A stretch of 64,000 nucleotides of DNA from Hyphomicrobium sp. (GTDB lineage Bacteria > Pseudomonadota > Alphaproteobacteria > Rhizobiales > Hyphomicrobiaceae). The DNA lies in contig RXJH01000010.1 in assembly GCA_003987725.1 (NCBI GenBank), positions 124,001 to 188,000 of the forward strand, in the 5' to 3' direction. Under the pieces are notes generated by a model. The model saw only the letters and a list, made by a program, of their open reading frames with translations. It ran no database searches and was not told the origin of the DNA. Below, one piece after another: positions 56,542 to 64,000 of this stretch (position 1 is the first letter of the stretch; each line of letters opens with the position of its first letter). A program made the position numbers and the translations under genes.

Positions 56542-57879
56542 TCAGGTCGCTGCGGCCAGCGCGCCTTTGAACGCCTCGACGAAGATGTCGACATGCTCGC
56601 GATTAAAGCAAAGCGGCGGCCGGATTTTCAAGACGTTACCATGGCCCCCGGCCGTCCCGATAAGGACGTTGCGCGCGCGCATACCATTGACGATTTTCTC
56701 GGCAAGCTTGCGATCGGGCTCCTTTGAGGCTTTGTCCTTGACGACCTCGACGCCGATATAAAGTCCAGCGCCGCGGACGTCGCCGATGCGGTCACCTTCG
56801 GCTCCGGCGCTGCGGAGTTCCGAGCGCAGATAGGCGCCGGTTTCGAGGCTATTCTGCTGCAGCCCTTCATCCTTCAGGACATCCAGGACGGCCAGTCCGG
56901 CAGCGGCCGCGACCGGATTGCCGCCGAATGTGTTGAAGTAGCCCGACTTCGAGCCGAATGCCTTCAGCATTGCTGGTTTCACCGCGACGCCGCCCATCGG
57001 GTAGCCATTGCCCATCGGCTTGCCCATGACGATCATATCGGGAACGAGACCGTGGCGTTCGAACCCCCACATTTTTTCGCCTGTGCGGCCGAATCCGGGC
57101 TGTACCTCGTCGGCAATGTAAACGCCGCCGGCGTCGCGAACCGCCTTGACTGCTTCAGCCAGGAATCCCGGCTCGCCCGGGAAAACGCCATCGCTCGAAA
57201 AGATGCTGTCAGCGTTGAACCCGGCGAGGCGAATGCCGGCGGCCTTCATTGCCGCGATCGCCGCGCGGACATCCTCGGCAAAGCGGTGTCCGATGGCCTC
57301 GCTGCCATAGCGATAGGTGTCCGGGGCCGGCACGACGAATACGTATGGCGGTCTCGGTTCGGCGCTGGCGGATGATGGCGAGATCTCCGTCATGGTCGTT
57401 GTGTTGCCATGATAGGCATTATCGGTGACGATGAAGCCGGTGCCTCCCGTGACCGCACGGGCGATGCGCAGAGCAAGATCGCCGCTTTCGCTGCCCGTAC
57501 AGGTGAATACGATGTTCGAGACAGCCTTCGGCATCGTGCCGAGAAGGCGTTCGGCATATGTGTAGATATTGTCGTAGAGGTACCGCGTGTGCGTGTTGAG
57601 CGTGCCGAGTTGGCGCGAAATGGCTTCGACGACGCGCGGATGGCAGTGCCCCACGGACGGCACATTGTTGTAGGCATCCAGATAGCGTGTGCCGTCGGCG
57701 TCATAGAGCCAGACCCCCTCGCCTTTGACGAGATTCAGCGGGCGCTCATAAAACAGCATCGAGGTCGGGCCGAAGGTCTTTTTCCGGCGCTTGACGAGGC
57801 TCGTCACCGCGGGCGCAAGCGTGTCGGCCGCGTTCATGTCGAAGGCGTTGAGATCGAGAATTTTTCGCGTAGATTCCAT
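56542..57879 (-). CDS. class III PLP-dependent aminotransferase or phospho-lyase
   Basis: This 445-residue fold-type I PLP enzyme has TGSESGDLALRIAR at about 128-141, ADEVQPGFGRTG with D257, and the Schiff-base lysine K287 in VMGKPMGNGYP. Its C-terminal GGHGNVLKIRPPLCF resembles ethanolamine-phosphate and hydroxylysine-phosphate phospho-lyases and related omega-aminotransferases, so it may act on an amino alcohol or its phosphate. It is divergent from the B12 dehydratase genes, with 259 bases between. A strong AGGGGG ribosome site precedes the ATG. It is not HpnO: it lies about 9 kb from the hopanoid genes and its closest features are of the lyase group. Confidence 0.9.
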   Translation of the reverse strand: MESTRKILDLNAFDMNAADTLAPAVTSLVKRRKKTFGPTSMLFYERPLNLVKGEGVWLYDADGTRYLDAYNNVPSVGHCHPRVVEAISRQLGTLNTHTRYLYDNIYTYAERLLGTMPKAVSNIVFTCTGSESGDLALRIARAVTGGTGFIVTDNAYHGNTTTMTEISPSSASAEPRPPYVFVVPAPDTYRYGSEAIGHRFAEDVRAAIAAMKAAGIRLAGFNADSIFSSDGVFPGEPGFLAEAVKAVRDAGGVYIADEVQPGFGRTGEKMWGFERHGLVPDMIVMGKPMGNGYPMGGVAVKPAMLKAFGSKSGYFNTFGGNPVAAAAGLAVLDVLKDEGLQQNSLETGAYLRSELRSAGAEGDRIGDVRGAGLYIGVEVVKDKASKEPDRKLAEKIVNGMRARNVLIGTAGGHGNVLKIRPPLCFNREHVDIFVEAFKGALAAAT

Positions 57880-58138
57880 GATGCCCCCTAGGGCAAGCTC
57901 CCTGGCAATGGTACGACTTTTCGCATCGGTTTCGTTTAGTATAGGATAGGCCGAGGGCCCCGGCTTGACCCTTCGTGGCCGGGTCTGTTCAGTTTGCGCT
58001 CAAGCGGCGATGCCGAACGTGGACTTGAGCCTGAAGACCCGTCAACTTCGAGGCGGCTCTGGTCAAACGCCCTGACTGTGCTCAGGCTATCGTTACGTCC
58101 GCCTGCAATCGCACCACCCATCGTCGAGAGCGCAACCC
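57880..58138. promoter_or_regulatory. divergent control region, aminotransferase/dehydratase
   Basis: There is no gene in this 259-base region. It should carry the two divergent promoters. I find no clear sigma-70 or sigma-54 box and no obvious palindrome longer than six bases. No regulator gene is adjacent, so control must come from elsewhere. Confidence 0.35.
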
Positions 58139-60421
58139 ATGACGGATGAATCGCACGCACGGCCAAATCGCTGGAAGCGGTTTTCCGATTGGGACGAGCG
58201 CCCGCTCCGGCTTGACAAGTTTGCAGCCGAGGATGCGGCAAGCGGTTTTTCGGCATTTAAAAGTCCGTTCGATCCGAAACCAGGGTTTTCCATCGGCGCA
58301 GGCGTCGTTGCCTCGATGGACGGGATCGCGTCGCGCGATTTCGACATGATCGACTTTTTCATCGCGCGGTATCATCTCGATCCTGAAATCGCGCCGGAAG
58401 CCATGGCGATGCCGTCGCTCGAAGTGGCGCGCATGCTCGTCGATATGAATGTGCCGCGGACGGCGCTCGTGCGTCTCGCTCACGGCATGACGCCGGCGAA
58501 ATTGGCCGAGGTCGTCAGTCATCTATCGTCCCTCGAGATCGCATTTGCCTACAGCAAGATGCGGGCGCGCCAGACGCCGGGCAACCAGGCGCACGTAACG
58601 AACGCCAAGGATGATCCATTGCAGATGGCGGCCGATGCCGCGACCGCCGTGGCGTTCGGCTTCGACGAAATCGAGACGACGATGCGGGTCGCCCGCAACT
58701 CCTGGTCAAATGCCGTTGCCTGTGCGGTTGGGGCCGCTGTCGGGCGTTGGGGCACGCTCTTTCAATGCTCCAGCGAAGAAGCGGAAGAACTCAAGATCGG
58801 CATGGCGGGGTTCACCTCCTACGCCGAGACCGTGTCTGTCTATGGCACGGAAAAGAGTTTCGTCGACGGCGACGACACGCCCTGGTCCAAGGCGTTTCTT
58901 GCAGCAGCATACGCCTCGCGCGGCATCAAGATGCGGTGCACATCCGGTGCGGGCTCAGAGTTGCTGATGGGATTTCACGATCGCAAATCGCTGCTCTATC
59001 TCGAAGCGCGATGCCTTTGCCTGCAACGCGCCATGGGCGCCCAGGGCACGCAGAACGGCGGCATCGACGGGGCTCCGGTGACGTGCACGGTTCCCGGCGG
59101 CATGCGGGAACTCATGGCGGAGAACCTGATCGCCGTCTGGCTCGATCTCGAATGTGCATCCGGAAACGATGCACGCGCGACGGAATCGGAGATCCGCGTC
59201 GGCGCGAAAATTCTGCCGTACCTCATCGCGGGGTCCGACCTCATCTGTTCCGGTTTCGGTTCGATCCTGAAGTATGACAATTCGTTCAACGCCTCGCTGC
59301 TCAACGGCGAGGAACTCGAAGACTATCTGGTTCTCCAGCGCGACTTCGAAGCCGACGGCGGGCTCACGCCTGTTGGTGAGACGCGCGTCATGGAACTTCG
59401 GGCGCGCGCCGTCGATGCCATCAGCGCCGTTCTCGAAGAGCTTGGGCTGGCGAAGCCGACCAGCGACATGAAGCTGAGTGTCATCGCGGCATCCGGCTCC
59501 GATGAAACCCGGACGTTCTCGGGCCGGGACGTCGCCATGATCAGCGAAGCCATCCATGCGCGGTCGATTACGGTGATCGACGTCATCAAGGCGCTCGCGG
59601 CGCGGGGATTTGCCGACGAGGCGGAAAATCTTTTGAAGCTCGTGCGGCTGCGCGTTTCCGGCGATTACCTACAAACATCCGCCGTGGTTCGGGATGGGCG
59701 CATCGTCAGCGCGGTCAACAATCCGAACGATTATCAGGGTCCGGGCACAGGCTACCGTCTCAGCGAAGAACGGCGCGAGGAAATCGTCGCCATCCGGGAT
59801 GTACTGACTCGGCAAGAGGTGTTGAGGGTCGAGGCAACCTACCGGCCGGCGGAAGTCACGCGGATCGCCTACAGGCCAGTCGGCCCCGCTGCCGCGACAC
59901 GCAACGCGCGGGAGGTGGTGATCGGCATCAGCCCAGCCTTCGGGTTGAAGCTCTTCCAAACGGTTGCGGGGCATCCGCTCTCAGCCATTCTGCGCGTGCT
60001 GATTGCGGGCATCACGGAAGGCGGGTGCACGGCCCGTGTCGTTCGCATGCGCCATACGGCCGATACGTCCTTCCTAGGGCTCAGCGCGGCGCGGCTCGCG
60101 GGCTCCGGTATCGGGATCGGGATCCAGGCGAAGGGGACTGCTGTCATCCACCAGAAAGACCGGCTGCCGCACAACAATCTCGAGCTGTTTTCGAACTCGC
60201 CGATCACCAAGCTCGAACATTACAAGCGCATGGGGCTCAACGCGGCCGCTTACGCGCTCGGCGAAATGCCGGAACCCGTCATCGTGCCGACGCGGGGCGA
60301 AGCGATGGGCTCTCGCTATCATGCCAAAGTTTCGCTCATCTACGCGATCGAGACCGAAATGACATCCGAAGGCGCGGAGCCCGAAGAGATCGACGTGACA
60401 TTCATCGGAGCCGCCGCATGA
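58139..60421 (+). CDS. coenzyme-B12 diol/glycerol dehydratase-type enzyme, fused large and medium subunits
   Basis: This 760-residue protein combines a PduC-like large subunit (residues 1 to about 555) and a PduD-like medium subunit (about 556-760), which are separate in Klebsiella. By recalled alignment at a constant offset of +9 to Klebsiella diol dehydratase, the catalytic and potassium-site residues are all kept: Q150, H152, E179, E230, Q305, D344 and S371. Two pocket residues differ: Ser301 is D310 and Gln336 is A345. The radical mechanism should be intact, but the substrate should differ from 1,2-propanediol; an acidic pocket residue favours a cationic group. The small subunit follows by ATGA overlap. 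No shell proteins are seen. Confidence 0.93.
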   Translation: MTDESHARPNRWKRFSDWDERPLRLDKFAAEDAASGFSAFKSPFDPKPGFSIGAGVVASMDGIASRDFDMIDFFIARYHLDPEIAPEAMAMPSLEVARMLVDMNVPRTALVRLAHGMTPAKLAEVVSHLSSLEIAFAYSKMRARQTPGNQAHVTNAKDDPLQMAADAATAVAFGFDEIETTMRVARNSWSNAVACAVGAAVGRWGTLFQCSSEEAEELKIGMAGFTSYAETVSVYGTEKSFVDGDDTPWSKAFLAAAYASRGIKMRCTSGAGSELLMGFHDRKSLLYLEARCLCLQRAMGAQGTQNGGIDGAPVTCTVPGGMRELMAENLIAVWLDLECASGNDARATESEIRVGAKILPYLIAGSDLICSGFGSILKYDNSFNASLLNGEELEDYLVLQRDFEADGGLTPVGETRVMELRARAVDAISAVLEELGLAKPTSDMKLSVIAASGSDETRTFSGRDVAMISEAIHARSITVIDVIKALAARGFADEAENLLKLVRLRVSGDYLQTSAVVRDGRIVSAVNNPNDYQGPGTGYRLSEERREEIVAIRDVLTRQEVLRVEATYRPAEVTRIAYRPVGPAAATRNAREVVIGISPAFGLKLFQTVAGHPLSAILRVLIAGITEGGCTARVVRMRHTADTSFLGLSAARLAGSGIGIGIQAKGTAVIHQKDRLPHNNLELFSNSPITKLEHYKRMGLNAAAYALGEMPEPVIVPTRGEAMGSRYHAKVSLIYAIETEMTSEGAEPEEIDVTFIGAAA

Positions 60422-60846
60422 CCGGGAAGCCTCTGACGGTTGCCGACTATCCGCTGGCCGAAAACCGGCCCGACGTTGTCGAGACGAAGGCCGGCAAAAC
60501 GCTTGACGACATCACGCTCGAGGGCGTCCTCTCCGACCGCGTGACCCTCCAGGATCTTCGGATCACGGGCCGGGCGCTTCGTCAGCAGGCGGAGATTGCA
60601 ACGGCGGCAGGACGGCCGACACTCGCCGCCAATTTCGAGCGCGGCGCTGAACTCGTGGATGTGCCTCAGGACGTGATCATGCGGGTCTATGAGCTGTTGC
60701 GTCCGGGGCGCGCGAACTCCAAGGACGAGCTGATCGCAGTCGCCAAAGACCTTCGCGAAACCTACGGCGCCGAGGGCGTCGCGGCCTTCATCGAAGAGGC
60801 CGCGGACGTCTACGAGCGCCGCTCTCTCTACAAAAAACGTTTCTGA
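60418..60846 (+). CDS. diol dehydratase-type small subunit
   Basis: This 142-residue protein is the PduE/DhaE-like small subunit: DYPLAENRPDVVETKAGKTL near the N-terminus, LRITGRALRQQAEIATAAGR near 57-76 and FERGAELVDVPQDVIMRVYELLRPGR near 82-108 follow the family pattern. It completes the dehydratase with the fused large-medium protein, whose stop overlaps its ATG (60418-60421). The same frame is open further upstream, but that part lies inside the dehydratase gene. It lies 10 bases upstream of a cysteine hydrolase gene. Confidence 0.93.
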   Translation: MTGKPLTVADYPLAENRPDVVETKAGKTLDDITLEGVLSDRVTLQDLRITGRALRQQAEIATAAGRPTLAANFERGAELVDVPQDVIMRVYELLRPGRANSKDELIAVAKDLRETYGAEGVAAFIEEAADVYERRSLYKKRF

Positions 60847-60856
60847 AAGGACGGGC

Positions 60857-61552
60857 ATGAGCTGGAAGACGGCCTATCGATCCATCTATTACGACGGCGC
60901 TCCGGAGCCAGACGATCCGGATCTTTCCAAGCAAACCACGGCCCTCCTCGTTATCGACGTCCAAAATACCTACCTTGCCCGGCCGGACCGGGCCTCGCTC
61001 CCGGCGGAAGAGCAACGCCGGTTCGACGCGTGGACACCGTTTCACGACCGCATGCACAATATCGTTTTGCCGCGGACGAAGGATCTGCTGCAGACATTCC
61101 GCAAAAACGGCGTCGAATGCCTGTTCGCCCGCATTGCCTGCCAGACCAAGGATGGCCGCGACCGGTCGCTATCGCAAAAGATGCCGGGCTGGAATAACCT
61201 GCTGCTGCCCAAAGACGAGACGCCGTCGCAGATTGTCCCGGAGCTTCTCCCCGTTGGCGAGGAGATCGTGGTTACGAAGACGACGGACAGTGCACTGACC
61301 GGAACCAACCTGCGGCTGATCCTAACGAACCTCGGCATCAAAACTGTCGTGTGCTGCGGTATTTTCACCGACCAATGCGTCTCCTCGACCGTCCGCAGCC
61401 TTGCCGACGAGAGCTTCGCTGTGGTCGTGGTGGAGGATTGCTGCGCGGCCGGTTCCGACGAGCTTCACCACAAAGAACTCGAGATCATGAACATGATCTA
61501 CGGTCACGTGATGTCGAGCGCGGAACTCAAGGCTCTGATGGGGCTAACGTAA
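60857..61552 (+). CDS. isochorismatase-family cysteine hydrolase
   Basis: This 231-residue enzyme has the family catalytic triad: D34 (LVIDVQNTYL), K141 (VVTKTTDSAL) and C174 (FTDQCVSSTVRSLADE). Relatives hydrolyse amides, carbamoyl groups or enol ethers, such as N-carbamoylsarcosine amidase, ureidoacrylate hydrolase and nicotinamidase. Placement directly after the dehydratase subunits suggests it releases ammonia, or opens an amide, within the same pathway. A ribosome site GAAAGGAC precedes the ATG. The substrate is not predictable. Confidence 0.9.
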   Translation: MSWKTAYRSIYYDGAPEPDDPDLSKQTTALLVIDVQNTYLARPDRASLPAEEQRRFDAWTPFHDRMHNIVLPRTKDLLQTFRKNGVECLFARIACQTKDGRDRSLSQKMPGWNNLLLPKDETPSQIVPELLPVGEEIVVTKTTDSALTGTNLRLILTNLGIKTVVCCGIFTDQCVSSTVRSLADESFAVVVVEDCCAAGSDELHHKELEIMNMIYGHVMSSAELKALMGLT

Positions 61553-61692
61553 ACGGCTTGACTCGGTCTGGAGGGTCAAGTTTCCGTAGGCGAAAGTCAA
61601 ATCAACTTGGCAGGTGCACGCCTACAGTGATTTTGTCATAGGGGGATTTGAATATGACGTGATCGACTGTTGAAGCGCTCCTTCCGACTCGT

Positions 61693-61748
61693 GCTCGCCC
61701 GTTGGCGAGCCCCCTTCGATCGCTTTCGTTCGGGCCCAATTTTTGGGC
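61693..61748 (+). terminator. two hairpins between cysteine hydrolase and solute-binding protein
   Basis: GCTCGCC-CGTT-GGCGAGC at 61693-61710 is a perfect 7-bp hairpin, and GCCCAA-TTT-TTGGGC at 61734-61748 a second 6-bp one. They lie in the 232-base gap before the solute-binding protein. They may end the dehydratase transcript, or shape the leader of the transporter mRNA. Neither has a downstream T-run. Confidence 0.4.
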
Positions 61749-61784
61749 AACAACATCATCTTTCGCCCACCAGGAGTGACAGAC

Positions 61785-62939
61785 ATGTTTGACAGCCACC
61801 TCACGCGCCGCAACTTCATGAAGACGTCAGCGTCTGTCGCGGCGACGCTCGCCGCCAGTCAGATGGGTCCATTCGCACGTCCCGCACACGCGGCCCGTGA
61901 CAAGGAACTCAATATCCTTTGTTGGGAAGGTTACAACTCGGCTCAGGTGCTGGACCCGTTCCGCTCATCCAAAAGCGCGAACGTCAAGGCTGAAAGCCTG
62001 ACCAACGATCCGACGATGATCAACCGTCTGCGCGCTGGCGAGATCAACGTGTGGGATCTTATCAACGTCAACAATCCCTGGGCACGCAAAGTTATGATGC
62101 CCGAAAAGTTGATCAAGCCGCTGGACCGCGCGAAGTTCGAACCCTACTTCGAAAAGATGTTGCCGCAGTTCAAGCCGCCCTACAAATGGGCAATGGATGA
62201 CTCCGGCAAAGAACTGCTCGGCATGGCTCAGCGCTTCGGGCCCTACTCATTCGTGGTCAATACCGACAAGATCAGCCGGAAAACGGCCGAGGATCAGGGT
62301 TGGGATCTCTTCAACGATCCGAAACTGGCGGGCCGCTTCGGCATTCTCGAATCCGACGACTGGAACGTCTTCGGCATCTGCGCGATCGCCGGCTTCGATC
62401 CGTACAAGCCGCATTCGCCCGAGGAAGTGGCCAAGTTCGAGGAAACCGCAAAGCGCGTCCTCAAGAACAAGAAGGTTGTCGGCGATATCGCAACGATGAA
62501 CCAGGCACTGATTTCCGGCGAAATCGATTGCCACCTCACAGGCGGATCGTACTCGGTCTCGCCGGCACGTGCCGACGGCCACCTGAACCTTCGTGCCATC
62601 ACGCCGAATAAGGGTCCCTTTGCAGGCGGTAAGGGCGGCATCGCGTGGATCGAAATCACGTCGGTCGTCAATAACCCGCAAGGTTCACCGCTCGCCGAGA
62701 CATTCCTCGAATATGTGCAGGACCCGGTCGTCGCACATACGGTGGCGTTCGCCGAGGGCACTTTCAACCCGGTCGCCCAAATGGGCAATCCGGAGTGCTT
62801 CAAGCTCTTCTCGAAGGAGCAGCTCGACGCCATCCAGTGGGACAGCCTTGACGAGGAGATGGCGCGCTCCGTCGAATACGATATCGTTCCGGATTACGAC
62901 AAGCTGCTCGACATCTGGAATGCAGCGAAAAAGAGCTGA
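61785..62939 (+). CDS. Tat-exported solute-binding protein, PotD/PotF-like
   Basis: This 384-residue protein begins with a twin-arginine leader (LTRRNFMKTSASVAATLAASQ, cut near PAHA) and the spermidine/putrescine-binding fold (ELNILCWEGYNSAQVLDPF, then WDLINVNNPWARKVMMPEKLIKPLD). It is a periplasmic ligand catcher for an ABC importer whose ATPase is the next gene. PotD relatives bind polyamines, opines and other cationic amines, which matches the idea of an amine-bearing substrate. GGAGTGAC precedes the ATG; an in-frame start at 61743 is ignored. A strong hairpin follows, often seen after abundant binding-protein genes. Confidence 0.9.
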   Translation: MFDSHLTRRNFMKTSASVAATLAASQMGPFARPAHAARDKELNILCWEGYNSAQVLDPFRSSKSANVKAESLTNDPTMINRLRAGEINVWDLINVNNPWARKVMMPEKLIKPLDRAKFEPYFEKMLPQFKPPYKWAMDDSGKELLGMAQRFGPYSFVVNTDKISRKTAEDQGWDLFNDPKLAGRFGILESDDWNVFGICAIAGFDPYKPHSPEEVAKFEETAKRVLKNKKVVGDIATMNQALISGEIDCHLTGGSYSVSPARADGHLNLRAITPNKGPFAGGKGGIAWIEITSVVNNPQGSPLAETFLEYVQDPVVAHTVAFAEGTFNPVAQMGNPECFKLFSKEQLDAIQWDSLDEEMARSVEYDIVPDYDKLLDIWNAAKKS

Positions 62940-62989
62940 GGCTAATGCGCTGCGCCGTTGCTAAAAGAATGGCGTAGTACACAACGCAT

Positions 62990-63020
62990 GGGCCTTCCGC
63001 CGTCGATAAGCGGAAGGCCC
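62990..63020 (+). terminator. mRNA-stabilising or attenuating hairpin after the solute-binding gene
   Basis: GGGCCTTCCGC at 62990-63000 pairs perfectly with 63010-63020 around CGTCGATAA, with no T-run after it. Such a structure lets the binding protein be made in excess over the downstream transporter subunits. The ATPase gene starts 53 bases later. Confidence 0.7.
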
Positions 63021-63072
63021 AAAACATTTCTCATCAGCTTCCGATAAAGTTGGAACTCCACCGTTGACCGCA

Positions 63073-64000
63073 ATGTCAAAGCCCATCCTGCAATTGAAGA
63101 ACGTCCGCAAAGCGTTCGGCACCCTCGCCGCCGTCGATGACGTCAATCTCTCCATCGGCGAAGGTGAATTCTTCACGATCGTCGGCCCCTCCGGGAGCGG
63201 CAAGACCACCTTGATCCGCATGCTCGCGGGAATGGAGAAGCCGACATCGGGCGACATTCTGCTCCACGACAAGCGCATCAACGACACCCCGGCCAACGAG
63301 AGGCCGACGTGCATGGTGTTCCAATCGCTCGCTCTCTTCCCTCACCGGACGGTCGGGCAAAACATCGAGTTTGCGCTGAAGATCCGAAACGTCGATCCGG
63401 CCGTTCGCGAGAAACGCGCGCGCGAACTGATGCAGCAGCTGCATCTTCCTGCCGACTACTATTCCAAGAACGTCACGCTATGCTCGGGCGGCGAACGCCA
63501 GCGTGTGGCGCTTGCCCGGGCGCTCGCCTTCGACCCGCAGATCCTGTTCTTCGACGAGCCGTTATCCGCGATCGACTACAAGCTTCGCAAGACGCTTGAA
63601 AAGGAACTCAAGGACATTCACCGCGAAACCGGCAAGACGTTCGTCTACATCACGCACAGCCTCGAAGAAGCGATGGTGATGAGCGATCGGATCGGAGTCA
63701 TGCGCCGCGGCAAACTCATTCAAGTCGGCTCGCCCAACGAAATCTATTCGACGCCGCGTTCGCGCTTCGTCTCCGAGTTCATGGGTGACGTCAACGTCAT
63801 TCCCGTCGAGGCGAACGGCGCGGGCTCCGTGCGTTCGCAGTCGCTCGGCGCTAGCTTCAAGGTTCTTGCAAATTCCGTCGAAGCCAAAGCGCAATGCCTT
63901 GTCGTTCGTCCGGAGTTCCTGCGTTTCCTCGACACTCCGGCCGATGCGCAGAATAGCCTCAGGGGAATACTCTATAACGAATACGCGCTCGGTTCGCGCA
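63073..64000 (+). CDS. ABC importer ATP-binding protein, PotA-like (3' end beyond window)
   Basis: The first 309 codons are present and the gene is cut by the window edge. Walker A GPSGSGKTT is at 38-46, Walker B ILFFDEP at 157-163, and the switch His is in YITHS. The signature reads CSGGERQ in place of LSGGQRQ, and DEPLSALD is DEPLSAID. The C-terminal part is a TOBE-type regulatory domain (FMGDVNVIPVEANG). It powers import with the solute-binding protein upstream; two permease genes are expected just outside the window. The start is ATG at 63073. Confidence 0.93.
   Translation, partial: MSKPILQLKNVRKAFGTLAAVDDVNLSIGEGEFFTIVGPSGSGKTTLIRMLAGMEKPTSGDILLHDKRINDTPANERPTCMVFQSLALFPHRTVGQNIEFALKIRNVDPAVREKRARELMQQLHLPADYYSKNVTLCSGGERQRVALARALAFDPQILFFDEPLSAIDYKLRKTLEKELKDIHRETGKTFVYITHSLEEAMVMSDRIGVMRRGKLIQVGSPNEIYSTPRSRFVSEFMGDVNVIPVEANGAGSVRSQSLGASFKVLANSVEAKAQCLVVRPEFLRFLDTPADAQNSLRGILYNEYALGSR

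Follow-up and report, generated by a model that had tools for sequence, protein, structure and literature searches.

An Asp301-type diol dehydratase in a candidate shell-less amine-catabolic operon of Hyphomicrobium

Gene content of the Hyphomicrobium locus

We analysed a 64,000-nucleotide stretch of a Hyphomicrobium genome (contig C2:124001-188000 of genome G000, which is 4.25 Mb long and 99.98% complete), hereafter called the window, whose right-hand end encodes an adenosylcobalamin (AdoCbl)-dependent dehydratase of the diol dehydratase family in the company of an importer and a set of amino-alcohol-type enzymes. The dehydratase is encoded on the plus strand by DHLM (58139..60421), in which the large and medium subunits are fused (PF02286, E 2e-213; PF02288, E 4e-28), and by a small-subunit gene (60418..60846; PF02287, E 4e-50) that overlaps DHLM by 4 nt, with all three subunit domains above cut-off. 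After a gap of 10 nt comes ISO, an isochorismatase-family cysteine amide hydrolase (60857..61552, plus strand; PF00857, E 9e-36). It is followed on the same strand by the first parts of an ATP-binding cassette (ABC) importer, namely a substrate-binding protein (SBP) with a twin-arginine translocation (Tat) signal and a PotD/PotF fold (about 61785..62939; SBP_bac_8), and a PotA-like ATPase that starts at about 63073 and runs through the window's last base, 64000, to window-equivalent position 64137 (full frame L002:7065-8138, L002 being the extended Hyphomicrobium locus).

Reading past base 64000 completed the importer with two permeases, which are followed on the plus strand by a short-chain dehydrogenase/reductase (SDR) and then, on the minus strand, by genes for an AraC regulator and an aminoglycoside phosphotransferase (APH)-type kinase (together L002:8099-12957). 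The plus-strand operon thus has the order DHLM, small subunit, ISO, SBP, ABC ATPase, two permeases, SDR. Divergent from it lies AT3 (56542..57879, minus strand; PF00202, E 3e-74), a class III pyridoxal phosphate (PLP) enzyme of the phospholyase type, and the 259 bp between the two divergent open reading frames (ORFs), 57880..58138, likely form a shared control region. The original prediction, made from the letters of the window, had named the fused dehydratase with its small subunit, ISO, the class III gene and parts of the importer, and Pfam and ORF analysis found all of them in place. The AraC regulator scores above the NCBIfam cut-off for QhpR, a type of regulator with a role in amine catabolism. 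An Rfam scan of L002 returned no matches.

The SDR, kinase and phospholyase resemble a known amino-alcohol route

The best PDB match of the SDR was 6ci8 (E 2.5e-87, 54.7% over 258 residues), with 6ci9 also a top match, and that of the APH-type kinase was 6ef6 (E 7e-88, 46.0% over 315 residues). The names of these PDB entries are generic ('3-oxoacyl reductase' for 6ci8, 'aminoglycoside phosphotransferase' for 6ef6); we take 6ef6 to be the (S)-1-amino-2-propanol kinase, and 6ci8/6ci9 the dehydrogenase, of the M. smegmatis Aaum microcompartment. For AT3 the closest solved relatives were 5g4i, a 'phospholyase' (E 4.9e-114), and then 6tor, an ethanolamine-phosphate phospho-lyase. These matches agree with its earlier placement in the amino-alcohol phospho-lyase group, and AT3 is predicted to be a 1-amino-2-propanol-phosphate phospho-lyase. 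Its top NCBIfam models, PRK06148 and PRK06149, are about 1000 residues long and were matched in their C-terminal part, below their whole-protein cut-offs; because the window kinase in turn matches the N-terminal part of PRK06149, if weakly (E 1.7e-12), the two models suggest that kinase and lyase also occur as a fusion.

Together, the SDR, kinase and AT3 would convert aminoacetone to 1-amino-2-propanol, then to its phosphate, and finally to propionaldehyde, ammonia and phosphate, and the core module is very probably one of 1-amino-2-propanol/aminoacetone catabolism. The original prediction had also offered a quaternary ammonium substrate. This is unlikely, since PLP lyase chemistry requires a primary amine, and with that lyase conserved downstream we ruled this candidate out. 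The same prediction proposed an undescribed pathway, which is not supported for the pathway as a whole. The kinase, SDR and lyase route is already known as the aminoacetone/1-amino-2-propanol pathway of the RMM/Aaum microcompartments, papers on the M. smegmatis (S)-1-amino-2-propanol kinase and dehydrogenase are cited in the available part of PMC8007038, and a diol dehydratase of RMM2 was noted by Axen 2014 (PMC4207490, as far as its accessible text goes).

The dehydratase clade carries an acid in the C3 pocket

The dehydratase is described here from an alignment that sets 82 members of its clade against 6 outgroup sequences of Pdu/Dha type, with reference numbers that run one above the Klebsiella oxytoca numbering. 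With PduCDE and DhaB the clade shares its fold family and the catalytic and metal-binding residues (listed in part in PMC7674605): Q141, H143, E170, E221, Q296, D335 and S362 are invariant throughout, and so is F374. The pocket around the substrate's third carbon is different. Position 301 is Asp in 82/82 clade members and Ser in 6/6 outgroups (in the window it is Asp310, codon 59066..59068 on the plus strand, placed by alignment as the counterpart of Ser301 of Klebsiella diol dehydratase), and position 336, which is Gln in all 6 outgroups, is Ala in 73 members, Thr in 6, Cys in 2 and Val in 1. Thus the Ser301 and Gln336 of the PduCDE/DhaB C3 pocket are both absent from every one of the 82. 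A further 29 dehydratase rows came from whole genomes, 18 of them from genomes partly shared with the 80-locus scan described below; 26 have Asp at position 301, two, both picked up by profile, have Ser (L118 and L131) and in one (L124) the region is absent. The Ser301-type protein of L118 shares 44% identity with the dehydratase of the window, has Ala at 336 and is a fused large-medium frame, so that among position 301, position 336 and the fusion only position 301 sets it apart from the clade; relatives of the SDR, kinase or aminotransferase are absent within about 8 kb of it.

In the accessible part of PMC7674605, the C3 hydroxyl of glycerol faces Ser301 in the pro-S binding mode, a contact tied to inactivation of the enzyme. 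An acid at this place is what an ammonium group on C3 would need. We consider it probable that the substrate of the dehydratase is an amine-bearing diol, as originally predicted, given the Asp at the Ser301 site, the amino-alcohol type of the SDR, kinase and phospholyase, and the PotD-like fold of the SBP.

Two models of about 174 residues, PduE among them, are matched only from position 38 on, where residue 5-6 of the small subunit aligns; shorter models, including DhaB3, align with it start-to-start. The small subunit therefore lacks the N-terminal extension of PduE, a lack that it shares with the DhaB3-type models, and by eye no clear extension was present across related loci, with or without microcompartment shell genes alike. 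On this feature the dehydratase resembles an enzyme that works upstream in the cytosol more than it does cargo of a bacterial microcompartment (BMC). At least part of the B12 supply is present, with a PduO-type adenosyltransferase and with CobS and CobT genes at L003:12913-14723, 25-27 kb past the window end. The absence of a dehydratase reactivase was borne out for the large subunit, PF08841, which had no match in the Hyphomicrobium genome (the small subunit was not searched), and no match above cut-off in 60 genomes, 19 of them dehydratase-positive. Two weak PF08841 matches below cut-off were both in dehydratase-negative genomes. The clade thus differs from PduCDE/DhaB also in its fused large and medium subunits, a trait present too in Ser301-type L118, and in having no reactivase above cut-off in these 60 genomes.

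The gene set recurs across Alphaproteobacteria

Scanning genome contigs with the fused protein and keeping the best 80 of 146 matches gave, with L002, 81 loci. Judged by those record titles that are informative, nearly all are alphaproteobacterial; one is from Halieaceae, and some are titled only 'Proteobacteria' or 'bacterium'. Fifty-two loci, the window included, have at least 7 kb of sequence on both sides of the dehydratase. Among these the SDR was found in 40, the APH kinase in 35, ISO in 34 and a class III aminotransferase of either of two types in 36, and 47 have at least one of SDR, kinase and class III aminotransferase. The gene set recurs in many Alphaproteobacteria, far beyond chance, and this conserved linkage supports the earlier proposal that the genes act together.

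On a FastTree tree of 88 dehydratases (with a long-branch warning for L093, L101, L102 and L103), the importer type switches at least 7 times (40 ABC, 22 APC) and, in loci with SDR and kinase, the presence of shell genes changes at least 5 times (11 with, 33 without). We also compared 60 genomes, the Hyphomicrobium genome included, of which 19 are dehydratase-positive and 41 negative. A kinase ortholog of at least 59% identity is present in 18 of the 19 positives and in one of the 41 negatives (G004, 84% complete); five more negatives have matches of 40-47%, so that 6/41 have any kinase match. A plasmid locus of Agrobacterium cucumeris combines a dehydratase with an SDR, an APH-family kinase, a relative of AT3 (53%) and a sugar-type ABC importer, with no annotated ISO.

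Linkage to glycerol genes, which the original prediction had named as a finding that would speak against it, was not found in operon form across the loci, and among the conserved genes we recognised none specific to propanediol or glycerol, with not every such family searched for. In L099, glycerol kinase- and GlpD-like ORFs were seen by eye on the opposite strand.

Two further contexts were observed. In the Roseovarius loci L062 and L084 the Asp301 dehydratase lies beside a branched-chain-type ABC importer; L062:1-9163 holds two glutamine-synthetase-like proteins and an Fe-containing alcohol dehydrogenase (family-checked), with an SDR 52% like the window SDR directly before the dehydratase, and L084 is alike by eye. 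This suggests another amine-handling context, a gamma-glutamyl-amine variant. In L139 and L140, on rhizobial plasmids, relatives (67-68%) of the second aminotransferase type stand by an alkaline-phosphatase-family protein and an oligopeptide-type ABC importer, hinting at a use on imported phospho-amines.

Importer and amide hydrolase

The Tat signal of the SBP scores above cut-off with TIGR01409 and just below the model's own cut-off with the Pfam TAT model. By sequence the SBP is only distantly related to PotD (E 1e-7). Its AlphaFold2 model (pLDDT 80.4) has PotD polyamine receptors as top Foldseek hits (E 1.4e-19, TM (target) 0.79), and the modelled fold supports a cationic ligand while not naming it. 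In other loci an APC permease takes the place of the ABC importer; its matches to models of ethanolamine and amino acid permeases stay below their cut-offs. Directly after the Hyphomicrobium kinase lie a further ABC importer of polyamine type and an aminobutyraldehyde-type dehydrogenase (L002:13123-18539).

In ISO, residues D34, K141 and C174 are invariant in 15 sequences, and we take them to be the Asp-Lys-Cys triad of the isochorismatase family; its kin by sequence are biuret and N-carbamoyl hydrolases. A part for ISO in the dehydratase step was considered and is weakened by its presence in clusters without a dehydratase (L113, L136 and L137). Four loci in which we did not find ISO (L044, L045, L047 and L056) have a class I glutamine amidotransferase (L044:10429-11373; PF00117 confirmed for L056), and ISO can therefore be described only as an 'amide hydrolase'. 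In L044 the SDR is also followed by a class II aldolase (PF00596). The ISO orthologs of Sinorhizobium and Shinella (L136 and L137; about 67%) lie near a second cysteine-hydrolase gene, an N-formylglutamate amidohydrolase and an aspartate-aminotransferase-family gene, to which Shinella adds a glutamine-synthetase-family gene.

Microcompartment relatives of the operon

The BMC domain PF00936 had no match in the Hyphomicrobium genome, with E. coli and Synechococcus positive as controls and the vertex family PF03319 not searched. The earlier remark that no shell genes are in view thus stands for this domain. In relatives, which the window could not show, shell genes do adjoin the gene set, in 17/81 loci (CcmP-like BMC-T, BMC-H and BMC-P, one protein of each family-checked). 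An acylating-type aldehyde dehydrogenase (AldDH) is present in 16/81 loci and absent from L002, and in 15 of the 16 its tail resembles an encapsulation peptide by eye; the sixteenth, in L093, has no such tail and no shell gene in view. According to the available text of PMC8217296, type I AldDHs bear an encapsulation peptide at the C-terminus, and the BMC-Tdp proteins of RMM1 and RMM2 form clades of their own.

These loci bring the gene set close to RMM/Aaum (Aut), and to RMM2 above all. An SDR, an APH-family kinase, a class III PLP enzyme and an importer are common to RMM/Aaum and the window set, RMM2 likewise holds diol dehydratase genes (PMC4207490, in the part available), and the shell genes and acylating-type AldDH of the 17 and 16 related loci are RMM-like. 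The RMM locus of Rhodococcus jostii RHA1, with annotated BMC genes, has relatives of the window kinase (39%) and AT3 (47%). The Hyphomicrobium operon is unlike RMM/Aaum in lacking an acylating-type AldDH and in coming from a genome without a BMC domain match. Its dehydratase, a fused protein with Asp301, shares the operon with the importer and an isochorismatase-type hydrolase. The pAt cluster of Agrobacterium fabrum C58 likewise shares the kinase (43%), AT3 (54%), the SDR (58%), a PotD-type importer (SBP 71%) and ISO (64%).

In the accessible portion of PMC4207490, Axen 2014 describe RMM2 as RMM1 plus a diol dehydratase, which they judged to be unused by the BMC unless the BMC is bifunctional. 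A bifunctional propionaldehyde route would have the dehydratase act on 1,2-propanediol and the kinase and phospholyase on 1-amino-2-propanol, with one downstream dehydrogenase for both. Its two branches converge on propionaldehyde, a bifunctional BMC is the very alternative that Axen 2014 name for RMM2 (PMC4207490, same portion), and the catalytic residues of the clade are those of diol dehydratase. However, a methyl group would sit badly opposite the Asp that occupies the C3-facing position in 82/82; none of the genomes searched has a reactivase above cut-off; even in BMC loci the small subunit has, by eye, no clear extension at its N-terminus; and the importers are amine-type or, once, sugar-type. 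We regard this route as improbable. For the same core genes, the available part of Ravcheev 2019 (PMC6620236) gives a transaminase-lactaldehyde scheme. A search of the open-access literature found no title or opening of an abstract that describes an amino-diol dehydratase, and neither the Asp301 subfamily, its tie to the route across importer swaps, a shell-free form nor a functional explanation was found there. Thus, the kinase/SDR/lyase route and the diol dehydratase of RMM2 are known already, and what appears to be new is the Asp301 dehydratase subfamily and its tie to that route.

A proposed pathway and the points that bear on it

Our reading, to which we give an even chance, is of a shell-less amine-catabolic operon in which the Asp301 dehydratase feeds an amino diol into the aminoacetone/1-amino-2-propanol route. 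The PotD-type ABC importer would take up a small amino (poly)ol. In the AdoCbl-dependent dehydratase, Asp301 would bind the ammonium of a diol with a primary amine on C3, for which 3-amino-1,2-propanediol is the best candidate, if a tentative one, and dehydration would proceed through the radical 1,2-OH shift that is usual for the family. The SDR would then reduce aminoacetone to 1-amino-2-propanol, the APH-type kinase would phosphorylate it, and the PLP phospholyase would release propionaldehyde, ammonia and phosphate. Computation gave us the genes of the set and their conservation, the exchange at position 301, the close resemblance to solved enzymes, and a genome with no BMC-domain or reactivase-family match; the substrate, aminoacetone rather than 3-aminopropanal as the product, and the order of the steps are what we infer. 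That aminoacetone is the product is less likely than not, and it is the reading that joins both halves into a single path.

Several points weigh against this pathway, and the chemistry comes first. Formation of aminoacetone needs hydrogen abstraction at C2, which sequence cannot decide. Known diol dehydratases abstract a hydrogen from the terminal carbon, by the part of PMC7674605 available to us, and abstraction there would give 3-aminopropanal. Nor did we find any source of 3-amino-1,2-propanediol. On a separate branch, 3-amino-1,2-propanediol would pass through 3-aminopropanal to beta-alanine by an aminoaldehyde dehydrogenase, and the kinase and phospholyase would serve another imported amine. 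The family's normal regiochemistry (PMC7674605, same part) favours such a branch, as do the kinase-branch clusters that exist without a dehydratase and the minus-strand aminobutyraldehyde-type dehydrogenase beside the Hyphomicrobium APH-family kinase (L002:13123-14568). That dehydrogenase, however, is outside the widely conserved set, and the conserved SDR and kinase match enzymes that we take to act in the aminoacetone route; we think the separate branch rather unlikely.

A second group of points concerns how closely the dehydratase is tied to the other genes. SDR, APH and aminotransferase genes are all absent from 5 of the 52 well-covered loci (L038, L084, L094, L101 and L102). In G038, the nineteenth dehydratase-positive genome, the kinase match is at 44% and about 550 kb from the dehydratase, and in the A. 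cucumeris locus the SDR is only about 32% like the window SDRs and the kinase was missed by BLAST with the window kinase. The C58 cluster has no dehydratase genes and a 37-kb stretch of the R. jostii RHA1 RMM locus gave no dehydratase match, so the dehydratase is an addition to the set, and its substrate is not necessarily what the importer carries.

The residue swap has its own counter-arguments. Because the clade loci were selected by similarity to the window protein (as the best 80 of 146 matches), Asp in 82/82 represents one clade rather than independent cases, and the Ala336 and fused frame of L118 mean that neither trait is diagnostic. In addition, Thr337, two residues past Asp335, has become Arg in 80/82 clade members, so that Asp301 could pair with Arg337, or the substrate could be zwitterionic. 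A structural Asp301 paired with Arg337, serving a zwitterionic or anionic substrate, would account for the way Thr337 to Arg accompanies Ser301 to Asp. However, Asp301 is retained in the one clade member with Ala and in the one with Lys at position 337, and a simple cationic amine is what the downstream enzymes and the PotD-like receptor suggest; of the alternatives weighed here, we hold this to be quite improbable.

Implications

Taken as a whole, the boldest form of the proposal is an amino-diol dehydratase family that makes aminoacetone from 3-amino-1,2-propanediol by taking the hydrogen from the inner carbon, against the regiochemistry of the known diol dehydratases, and so supplies the missing upstream step of the RMM2 metabolosome, in Hyphomicrobium without shell or reactivase. 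We put it forward as a conjecture that is on balance unlikely in this full form. If it is true, it would give a function to a dehydratase that the BMC survey treats as optional in RMM2 or not used there, and a shell-free form would exist of a pathway known from a compartment. A single residue would define a new substrate class within a much-studied family of B12 radical enzymes. The operon would also provide a natural dehydratase that seemingly lasts without a reactivase, which would matter because inactivation by glycerol, tied to the Ser301 contact, limits such enzymes in industry.

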